In this document: positions 3,697 through 60,497 of the stretch, piece by piece
How positions within the stretch are numbered: the stretch's first letter is position 1
Layout of the letters: the number at the start of each line of letters is the position of its first letter
Origin: Candidatus Gastranaerophilales bacterium
GTDB taxonomy: Bacteria; Cyanobacteriota; Vampirovibrionia; Gastranaerophilales; Gastranaerophilaceae
NCBI GenBank assembly: GCA_944325635.1
Contig: CALVBD010000001.1
Span: forward strand, 186,001 to 250,000
DNA length: 64,000 nt
Direction: 5' to 3'
Position numbers and translations under genes: made by a program
Notes under the pieces: generated by a model
What the model was told of the DNA's origin: nothing
Database searches by the model: none
What the model saw: only the letters and a program-made list of their open reading frames with translations

Positions 3697-4663
3697 TGGT
3701 ATTGGACCTGAAATTTCAGATGCAGTAATGAGAATTATTGAGGCCAGCGGACTTAAAATCAACTGGGATATCCAGACTGCCGGTACTGACGTTATTGCAG
3801 AAGAAGGCACTCCCTTGCCGGCAAGGGTTCTTGAATCTATTAAAATTAATCAAGTTGCATTAAAGGCTCCGATAACGACACCTATAGGTACAGGATTTCG
3901 TTCTGTAAATGTTCAGCTTCGTAAGGCGCTTGATTTATATGCGAATGTGCGTCCAGCTAAAAATCTTCCGAATGTTAAAACAAGATATGAAGGTGTTGAT
4001 TTAGTTGTTATCCGCGAAAATACTGAAGATTTGTATGCAGGTTTGGAGCATAAAATAGATGATGGCACGGCTGAAAGCATTAAAGTTATATCGAGAAAAG
4101 CTTCTGAGCGAATTTGCCGTTATGCATTTGATTATGCGGTTCGTCATAAGAGAAAAGAGGTTTGCTGCGCTACTAAAGCGAATATCTGTAAGCTTTCTGA
4201 CGGATTATTCCTGGATTGCTTCAGAAATGTAGGTGCTGAATATCCCAAAATTAAGCAGAGAGAAATCCTCGTGGATAATCTTTGCCTCCAACTGGTTCAG
4301 GATCCTACAGAATTTGATGTTCTTGTTATGCCTAATATGTACGGAGATATAGTTTCTGACTTGACCGCAGGTCTAATCGGCGGCCTCGGAGTTGCGCAAG
4401 GTGCAAATATCGGGAAATATGGTGCAGTTTTTGAGCCTGTACATGGTTCTGCTCCGGATTTGAAAGGCAAAAATAAAGCTAATCCTACGGCATTGCTTCT
4501 TTCTGCGATAGATATGCTTAGATATATTGAAGAGAATGAATATGCTGACAAAATTGAGAAAGCTTTGTTTAGAGTTTTTGAAGACGGATGCTTTACAGAG
4601 GATCTGGGTGGAAAAATGAAAACAACAGAATTCAGGGATGCCATTATTATGAATTTAAATTAA
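3668..4663 (+). CDS. icd: NAD-dependent isocitrate dehydrogenase (isopropylmalate dehydrogenase superfamily)
   Basis: Beta-decarboxylating dehydrogenase of 331 aa, the usual length of the NAD-type enzyme. Motifs in order: KGDGIGPEI (N-terminus), TPIGTGFRSVNVQLRK (substrate loop, about 71-86), NVRPAKN, RENTEDLYAG (about 116-125, isocitrate-type), ATKANICKLSDG, MPNMYGDIVSDL (metal-binding Asp residues) and FEPVHGSAPDL (cofactor loop). It oxidises isocitrate to 2-oxoglutarate. The RENTED sequence argues against LeuB, although homoisocitrate dehydrogenase cannot be excluded. The usual VHKANI is CATKANI here. AAAGG lies about 10 nt upstream; the gene shares the promoter at 3428 and ends at a terminator. 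Confidence 0.85.
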   Translation: MKTVTLIKGDGIGPEISDAVMRIIEASGLKINWDIQTAGTDVIAEEGTPLPARVLESIKINQVALKAPITTPIGTGFRSVNVQLRKALDLYANVRPAKNLPNVKTRYEGVDLVVIRENTEDLYAGLEHKIDDGTAESIKVISRKASERICRYAFDYAVRHKRKEVCCATKANICKLSDGLFLDCFRNVGAEYPKIKQREILVDNLCLQLVQDPTEFDVLVMPNMYGDIVSDLTAGLIGGLGVAQGANIGKYGAVFEPVHGSAPDLKGKNKANPTALLLSAIDMLRYIEENEYADKIEKALFRVFEDGCFTEDLGGKMKTTEFRDAIIMNLN

Positions 4664-58650: not shown

Positions 58651-60246
58651 TTAGAGTTTTTCTGCATCTTTTTCAGGTGATGATGTCGTTTTAATTCCAT
58701 ATGTTTTTTCTAATGCAGACTGTACAGATGGATTTATTACGTTTGGAGAACACTGGAATAAATAAACATTTTTAGCGCCTTTATTTTTTAGCGATATAAT
58801 TTTTGAAATAGAACCAACATCGCACTTTGTTAGGAAAAAGCTTATTCTGGAAGAATTAATTTTGATTTTTTTAAATAATTCCATCAAGATATTGTACATC
58901 AACGGAAGATTATTAACGAGATGAATTTTTAAGATATTCCGGTAGTCAAATGCATAAGAAAAACTTATCACATAAGATTTTTCAGGTAAATGTTTAAAAA
59001 GGCTTTTAAAGTACATTTCTTGCTGTTTAGAGTAATTTGAAATTCCTACAATTATAAGTCTCTCTATTTCTTTATTATTGAATTTCCGGGCAATTTCATC
59101 CAATCTCTTAAAAAGCTCTGATTCATTATATCCTACCAGCTCATCGTCTCTTTTCTGTCCTTTTGCAAACCCTTTTGCTTCAAGAGCAGAATTAATGAGC
59201 GGTTTAAAGTCATTATTAACGATTTGTATAACGCCTTTTGGCTTAAAAATTTCTGTGGAAAACAATCTTCCGCGGTATAAATATTCAAGATTCTGGGATG
59301 AGTTTCTTGTAAGAAGGATAGCACCTGGAAATGTTGCAAAATCAAGTATACAGTTTTCTGCACAGGTTCCGTAATGACCTTTTAGCTGTTCGAATTTTTT
59401 AAAATTTTCAAATATATGTGCGACAAGCAAATCTCCATGTGTATATATATCAATTGTGTGATTTTCTGTATCACTTAAAAGCTTATATAATTCATCAAGA
59501 GATCCGCCGGAGACAAGTATTGCTTTACCAGCCGAGGTTGAATGTGAAACTGAAGTTTCTGAGATATTCCCATATAGTTTTTTCTCTTCTTTTGCTATTT
59601 TTTGTAATATTATTTCATCACAAATTGCTAAATCATTTATTTGTTTTTTGACTTTAAGCATGTAAAATCTTCCTGCATTTAAGATATCAAGACCTTTCAA
59701 AACAGCAATTTCTAAGTCCTGACACTCATAAGAATAATCTTTTAGTATAACAAGATTTGATGATACTGATTTTAAAACACTCAAAAGAATTTCGTACATG
59801 TTTCGCTGGGACGCAGACATCTTATTATACTTATTAAGAAAAAGTTTTTCCCCCTGCGCAATAATGGACGACAGAGTCATTTGAGGATTAATATCCAGGC
59901 CTGACTTAAGTTCTTCGCAGGCAGTATTTCTTTCCTTGCATGCTTGAAGATATTGACGCTTAGTCTTAACCAGGAACGCATATTGTTTACTAACAAGCCC
60001 AAGAAGCTGTTCATCACTATAGTCTGTGGTAGAAATTAATGTAGAGAGACTTTCAACAATATTTGAACTTATTTGTGAAATATTCTGACCAAATGTATTT
60101 AATTTTAATGCATAATGAGAAAGCTGTTTAAGGAATATAATCAACACTTCTTGCAAGGAAGAAATTTTCGGAGCTATTGAACAAGTTCCGCGTGCATTAC
60201 ATTCATTATATTCAGAGCCTTCATCTTTGTAATAATTATAAAACAT
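58651..60246 (-). CDS. Degenerate hybrid-cluster (Hcp/prismane-like) protein
   Basis: 531 aa, close to the ~550 of Hcp. The second half aligns block by block with hydroxylamine reductase Hcp: ILVSGGSLDELYKLL, DIYTHGDLLVAHIFENFKKF, GHYGTCAENCILDFATFPGAILLTRNS, RGRLFSTEIFKPKGV, KNKGAKNVYLFQCSPNVINPSV. Yet every expected hybrid-cluster Cys is changed: TxNC is TRNS, GGCDGAR is VGISNYS, LACGKYR is FSYAFDYR, and the GQCND position has no Cys. The N-terminal CxxC...C cluster motif is reduced to two Cys (CNARGTC). Probably a non-catalytic relative with a new role. Eight bases after the glutaredoxin gene. Confidence 0.75.
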   Translation of the reverse strand: MFYNYYKDEGSEYNECNARGTCSIAPKISSLQEVLIIFLKQLSHYALKLNTFGQNISQISSNIVESLSTLISTTDYSDEQLLGLVSKQYAFLVKTKRQYLQACKERNTACEELKSGLDINPQMTLSSIIAQGEKLFLNKYNKMSASQRNMYEILLSVLKSVSSNLVILKDYSYECQDLEIAVLKGLDILNAGRFYMLKVKKQINDLAICDEIILQKIAKEEKKLYGNISETSVSHSTSAGKAILVSGGSLDELYKLLSDTENHTIDIYTHGDLLVAHIFENFKKFEQLKGHYGTCAENCILDFATFPGAILLTRNSSQNLEYLYRGRLFSTEIFKPKGVIQIVNNDFKPLINSALEAKGFAKGQKRDDELVGYNESELFKRLDEIARKFNNKEIERLIIVGISNYSKQQEMYFKSLFKHLPEKSYVISFSYAFDYRNILKIHLVNNLPLMYNILMELFKKIKINSSRISFFLTKCDVGSISKIISLKNKGAKNVYLFQCSPNVINPSVQSALEKTYGIKTTSSPEKDAEKL

Positions 60247-60254
60247 ACTAATAC

Positions 60255-60497
60255 CTATATTGCTAAATTATACTTTGTTCTGATATAATCAATGATTACG
60301 TCAGATTCATACATTGACTTTCCATTATCATCATCTGTAAGAAACGGAACTTGTGCCATTCCCCCCAGAGATATTAATTTAGTGTAATTTTTGGTATCAG
60401 TAATATCTTTTCGGTTAAACTCTATTTTATTTGCATCTAAGTAAGAAAGCACCTTTCTGCAATAAGGACAAGTTTCTGAGTAATATAAATCAAGCAT
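60255..60497 (-). CDS. Glutaredoxin
   Basis: 80 aa: LYYSETCPYCRKVLSYLDANKI with the dithiol CPYC active site (about 10-13), GGMAQVPFL (cis-Pro) and SMYESDVIIDYI, all typical of GrxC-type glutaredoxins. First gene of a two-gene operon with the degenerate Hcp-like gene, a pairing that hints at redox or NO/nitrosothiol biology. GGAG is upstream of ATG. Confidence 0.93.
   Translation of the reverse strand: MLDLYYSETCPYCRKVLSYLDANKIEFNRKDITDTKNYTKLISLGGMAQVPFLTDDDNGKSMYESDVIIDYIRTKYNLAI

Follow-up and report, generated by a model that had tools for sequence, protein, structure and literature searches.

The 64,000-nucleotide window analyzed here, a stretch of a Candidatus Gastranaerophilales bacterium contig, encodes on its minus strand a 531-aa homolog of the hybrid cluster protein (Hcp) that has lost all seven ligands of the hybrid cluster and has gained two covarying cysteines at positions of the old active site (58651..60246). 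The gene is maintained by purifying selection, and almost every genome sampled from the family that contains Candidatus Scatousia has a relative. We consider it close to an even call, falling slightly on the doubtful side, that this protein is a lineage-specific Hcp paralog in which the ligands of both metal clusters were lost and which was rebuilt as a thiol-redox protein. Because it fails the ligand tests that define Hcp, "Hcp" is unsuitable as a functional name, and we refer to it as pseudo-Hcp.

The reading frame at 58651-60246 (-) is open and full length, and its product scores 93 bits against the Pfam Prismane model (PF03063), well above the gathering cut-off of 27 and within the Prismane/CODH superfamily. 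The NCBIfam models PRK05290 and TIGR01703 align with it end to end at 212 and 196 bits, well under their respective equivalog cut-offs of 367 and 361. A PDB sequence search returned Hcps for all high-scoring matches (7de4, E=4e-33; 1e2u/1gnt, 8e-28), profile-profile comparison with canonical Hcps from the same phylum gave a probability of 100% (E=9e-47), and all 11 matches obtained at E<=0.001 in a Foldseek search with a weak model were likewise Hcps. Hcps of class I (D. vulgaris, 1W9M/1GNT; M. thermolithotrophicus, 8CNR) and class II (E. coli, 7DE4), which are homologous to pseudo-Hcp end to end and of similar length, were the first match in sequence, profile and fold searches alike. The Hcp alignment claimed in the original prediction is borne out by these comparisons, which establish, at the level of homology, that the protein belongs to the Prismane/CODH superfamily and is related to Hcp throughout.

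Ligand positions were mapped onto pseudo-Hcp through an alignment with D. vulgaris Hcp, with numbering counted on that alignment, and we take the hybrid-cluster ligands of the D. vulgaris protein to be His244, Glu268, Cys312, Cys406, Cys434, Cys459 and Glu494. In that protein, these residues fall respectively within ISGHDLKD, YTHGEM, TTNC, GCDG, a Cys-Ala-Lys-Tyr-Arg block, GQCND and WYEQK. The Hcp hybrid cluster is held by seven ligands of the Cys, His and Glu types (PMC10502027), and none of the four Cys, two Glu and one His is retained in pseudo-Hcp. Gly248 (59503..59505, like all codons given below on the minus strand) stands at the His244 position, where just 4 of 157 aligned relatives have His, and Ser316 (59299..59301) at that of Cys312, where Cys is found in 2/157. 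The position of Cys406, the persulfide ligand, is taken by Ser403 (59038..59040); Cys is not a common residue in this column, and a single row (g4) among the 157 has any Cys within 4 columns of it. Tyr431 (58954..58956), shared by 98/157 relatives, replaces Cys434. The column nearest to Cys459 corresponds to residue 444 (58915..58917), which is not Cys and lies in a stretch about 14 residues shorter than that of Hcp, its flanking columns being 44 residues apart versus 58 in Hcp. Every hybrid-cluster Cys has been replaced, as predicted, and we further found both ligand Glu residues changed to Asp, a substitution that the original prediction does not mention: Asp272 (59431..59433) occupies the Glu268 position (Glu in 23/157), and Asp476 (58819..58821) that of Glu494 (Asp in 121/157, Glu in 6/157).

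This loss extends to the whole group. Across the 157 aligned sequences, no hybrid-cluster ligand is kept in 123, one in 27, two in 6 and three in 1; for the four Cys ligands, 148 sequences keep none and 9 keep one. With at most three of seven ligands in any relative, and judging from the aligned residues, a hybrid cluster of the Hcp type cannot be built in any member of the group.

The N-terminal C-x2-C-x8-C-x5-C motif that binds the [4Fe-4S] cluster is halved, in keeping with the claim that most of it had been replaced: its first two Cys have been lost, and the third and fourth persist as Cys16 (60199..60201; Cys in 146/157) and Cys22 (60181..60183; Cys in 147/157). On this basis, the [4Fe-4S] cluster very probably cannot be assembled in the pseudo-Hcp group either. 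The two retained residues tend to vanish together, with both present in 145 rows, neither in 9 and one in 3. It is conceivable that they still bind a cluster, such as a [2Fe-2S] center bridging two protomers or the protein and a glutaredoxin, and that the protein serves as an electron carrier. Their alignment with the third and fourth [4Fe-4S] ligands and their joint presence in 145 rows are consistent with this proposal, as is the fact that glutaredoxins can bind bridged [2Fe-2S] clusters; it nonetheless appears distinctly improbable, given that a Cys occurs in the 14 residues before C16 in just 11/157 rows and that genera g12, g18, g32 and g41 have lost C16 and C22 jointly and retain the gene.

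The best clue to a new function is a pair of cysteines that the original prediction had not noted. Cys475 (58822..58824) stands in for Tyr493, next to the position of the Glu494 ligand, and Cys499 (58750..58752) replaces the Thr at the end of the LGPTLP strand. Both are Cys in 150 of the 157 rows and both are absent in the remaining 7, with no row harboring a single one. On the tree, each changes 4 times, in identical rows. The resulting Jaccard index of 1.00 is the highest among 528 pairs of conserved columns (next highest, 0.81), and when four changes were placed at random 20,000 times, the coincidence was never reproduced exactly; a sign test on independent pairs gave 4/4, too few pairs to reach significance. 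In a low-confidence AlphaFold model, built from two sequences (mean pLDDT 50.7), C475 and C499 each follow the end of successive strands (468-472 and 493-496); at this pLDDT no distance is claimed, and their proximity is inferred from the strand positions. The loss of the pair in four lineages indicates that it is dispensable there and may be structural. A shorter and more divergent subgroup, comprising genera g3, g21, g26, g36, g37 and g39 (L076-L081, L091-L095; frames of ~480-530 aa), has a reduced region before C475 and retains C475 and C499 in most cases.

One residue is invariant in the family: Asp302 (59341..59343), part of the DFATFPGAILLT motif, is Asp in 157/157 rows, whereas the ten canonical Hcps used for comparison have Glu. 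Its conservation, together with that of D476 and of the Cys pair, would fit a different metal site, in which a mononuclear Zn or Fe or a small Fe-S center would be held in the old pocket by C475, C499 and acidic residues such as D302, D476 or D272, possibly together with H270; the HCP/CODH superfamily is known to have altered its ligand sets in the same pocket through point mutations (PMC10502027). We regard such a site as improbable, because it would have two Cys only, the lineages without them still have D302, D302 itself corresponds to no known ligand position, and the other candidate ligands vary, with D476 and D272 variable and H270 replaced by Asn in 34/157. Separately, a CxxxC at positions 295/299 was considered as a new metal site and discarded as clade-specific (C295 is Cys in 34/157 and C299 in 87/157).

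Profile searches located ligand-poor homologs in about 39 genera of the Candidatus Scatousia family, in which 356 of 383 genomes yielded a match, canonical Hcp matches included. The same searches did not find the ligand-poor form in the sampled same-class family f2, and the other sampled Cyanobacteriota families presented canonical Hcp or nothing. No relatives were detected on the viral contigs searched, and a contig scan limited to close relatives matched one Scatousia record. In two genomes, Hcp-like genes occur in tandem, with two copies in G015 (L107, G015:C41) and three in G011 (L114, G011:C145:12619-17460), the middle copy of the latter lacking C16 and C22.

The pseudo-Hcp gene has dN/dS values of approximately 0.03-0.27 in close pairs of orthologs, and it has both rpsG and wecB in its vicinity in genera g1, g2, g7, g8, g13, g17, g20, g22, g35 and g38, and wecB in g27. 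That the gene is a decaying pseudogene or an assembly artifact is scarcely credible in view of its full length, its low dN/dS across ~39 genera and the conservation of rpsG/pseudo-Hcp/wecB synteny in several of them, even if a few relatives carry single in-frame stops and the gene is cleanly absent from two genomes. Decay is rejected by selection and breadth, as the original prediction had anticipated. The two genomes without the gene (G160 and G264) are otherwise near complete, which indicates that it is not indispensable.

Eight nucleotides upstream of pseudo-Hcp lies an 80-aa reading frame with a CPYC motif (60255..60497, minus strand), the glutaredoxin that had been reported next to it. 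This protein scores above the cut-offs for both GST_N_3 (57.6 bits versus 22) and Glutaredoxin (28.4 bits versus 22.9), and can be described as a glutaredoxin/GST-N-like protein. A glutaredoxin gene directly precedes pseudo-Hcp in 110 of 155 rows, corresponding to 16 of the 39 genera sampled. As assigned by profile scores and phmmer E-values, the adjacent glutaredoxin is related to the GST-N-like type of the window in 12 genera, whereas in g9, g18, g32 and g41 it is replaced by a Grx3-type protein. The presence of two different glutaredoxin types at one position favors a functional link with pseudo-Hcp. The proposal of a maintained redox partner holds to this extent but not across the family, since many genera have no adjacent glutaredoxin and the glutaredoxin gene survives in the two genomes without pseudo-Hcp, at the conserved rpsG/wecB locus (L191 3799-4053(-) in G160; L192 ~3898-4137(-) in G264). 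The pairing is not obligatory. About half of the genomes tested among those with glutaredoxin-less loci encode a close homolog elsewhere.

A strict association between the adjacent glutaredoxin and either cysteine pair was rejected. Adjacency tracks neither pair: it persists in g9 and in two g2 genomes, which have lost C475/C499, and in g18, g32 and g41, which have lost C16/C22. In g9 (L074/L075), the upstream glutaredoxin of the genomes without C475/C499 has CPYS instead of CPYC; some other rows also have CPYS and keep the pair.

The genome under study also encodes a separate, intact Hcp with all ligands present (G000:C1:635469-636980; L001 1483-3018(-)), preceded immediately upstream by a gene for an Rrf2-type regulator. 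Pseudo-Hcp is 22% identical to it. The intact protein shares 93% identity with that of g7 (G006), versus just 43% between the Hcp-like proteins of the same genomes, and this value points to strong constraint or transfer of the canonical Hcp. The pseudo-Hcp of the window is 26-50% identical to its orthologs in other genera, as opposed to 70-93% for canonical Hcp between the same genomes. This rapid divergence, the disappearance of the former catalytic residues and the retention of the gene in the four lineages that lost C475/C499 could be accounted for by a cluster-free scaffold or pseudoenzyme. The Hcp fold would then have been retained for interaction with other proteins, for example to regulate canonical Hcp or another partner, and the Cys pairs would be mere stabilizing disulfides or packing residues. 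We deem this explanation unlikely, though less so than a metal site. C475 and C499 occupy former active-site positions, a glutaredoxin gene repeatedly adjoins that of pseudo-Hcp, and the cytosol of anaerobes seldom contains structural disulfides. Moreover, canonical Hcp scored over the cut-off in just 34 of 83 genomes of the family and cannot therefore be the general partner of pseudo-Hcp.

Taken together, family-wide ligand loss, full length and the presence of an intact Hcp elsewhere in the genome support the original idea of a cluster-free Hcp descendant, and the enzyme fold was apparently put to a new use, probably in thiol redox chemistry. In the thiol-redox reading, C475 and C499 would sit at the ends of neighboring strands within the former cluster pocket, where they could form a dithiol/disulfide or provide a thiol carrying persulfide, NO or glutathione, and the retained C16 and C22 may constitute a second dithiol pair. 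A glutaredoxin, adjacent or encoded elsewhere, would reduce these cysteines or exchange with them. In its most specific form, that the Fe-S-O cluster was evolutionarily replaced throughout the family by a Cys pair in the same pocket, yielding an enzyme or sensor that is free of metal, operates through thiol/disulfide (or persulfide/S-nitroso) chemistry and is served by glutaredoxin, this reading is put forward as tentative, and we would sooner doubt it than assert it.

Among known systems, Hcps of classes I and II differ from the pseudo-Hcp group in having sufficient hybrid-cluster ligands and a complete N-terminal motif, whereas pseudo-Hcp is shorter around Cys459 and has acquired Cys in place of Tyr493 and of a Thr on the following strand. 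Conservation of the cluster ligands has been described for every HCP class (PMC10502027). The class III Hcp of Methanothermobacter is, like pseudo-Hcp, linked to a small redox protein, but the partner is a fused rubredoxin instead of a separate glutaredoxin and all cluster ligands are kept (PMC10502027). CODH-V, or the structural group D-1 Ni-CODHs, likewise comprises Prismane-superfamily members with changed active-site residues (PMC6344411, PMC10502027) in which the expected activity is absent (PMC13056359). CODH-V is the closest known example of an altered active site; it still binds an Fe-S-O cluster, while pseudo-Hcp derives from Hcp and has no Cys ligands. The literature searched yielded nothing on the pseudo-Hcp group, and no paper in it connects Melainabacteria to the hybrid cluster protein or Gastranaerophilales to hydroxylamine reductase.

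A selected, family-wide Hcp relative without ligands implies that the fold is reusable without its metal center, and makes pseudo-Hcp a natural experiment on the function of the Hcp fold once the cluster is lost, with C475/C499 as a defined Cys pair to target by mutation. In these gut anaerobes, pseudo-Hcp would serve as a thiol redox enzyme or sensor devoid of clusters, and the reduction of NO or hydroxylamine would fall to the intact Hcp in those genomes that encode one separately.
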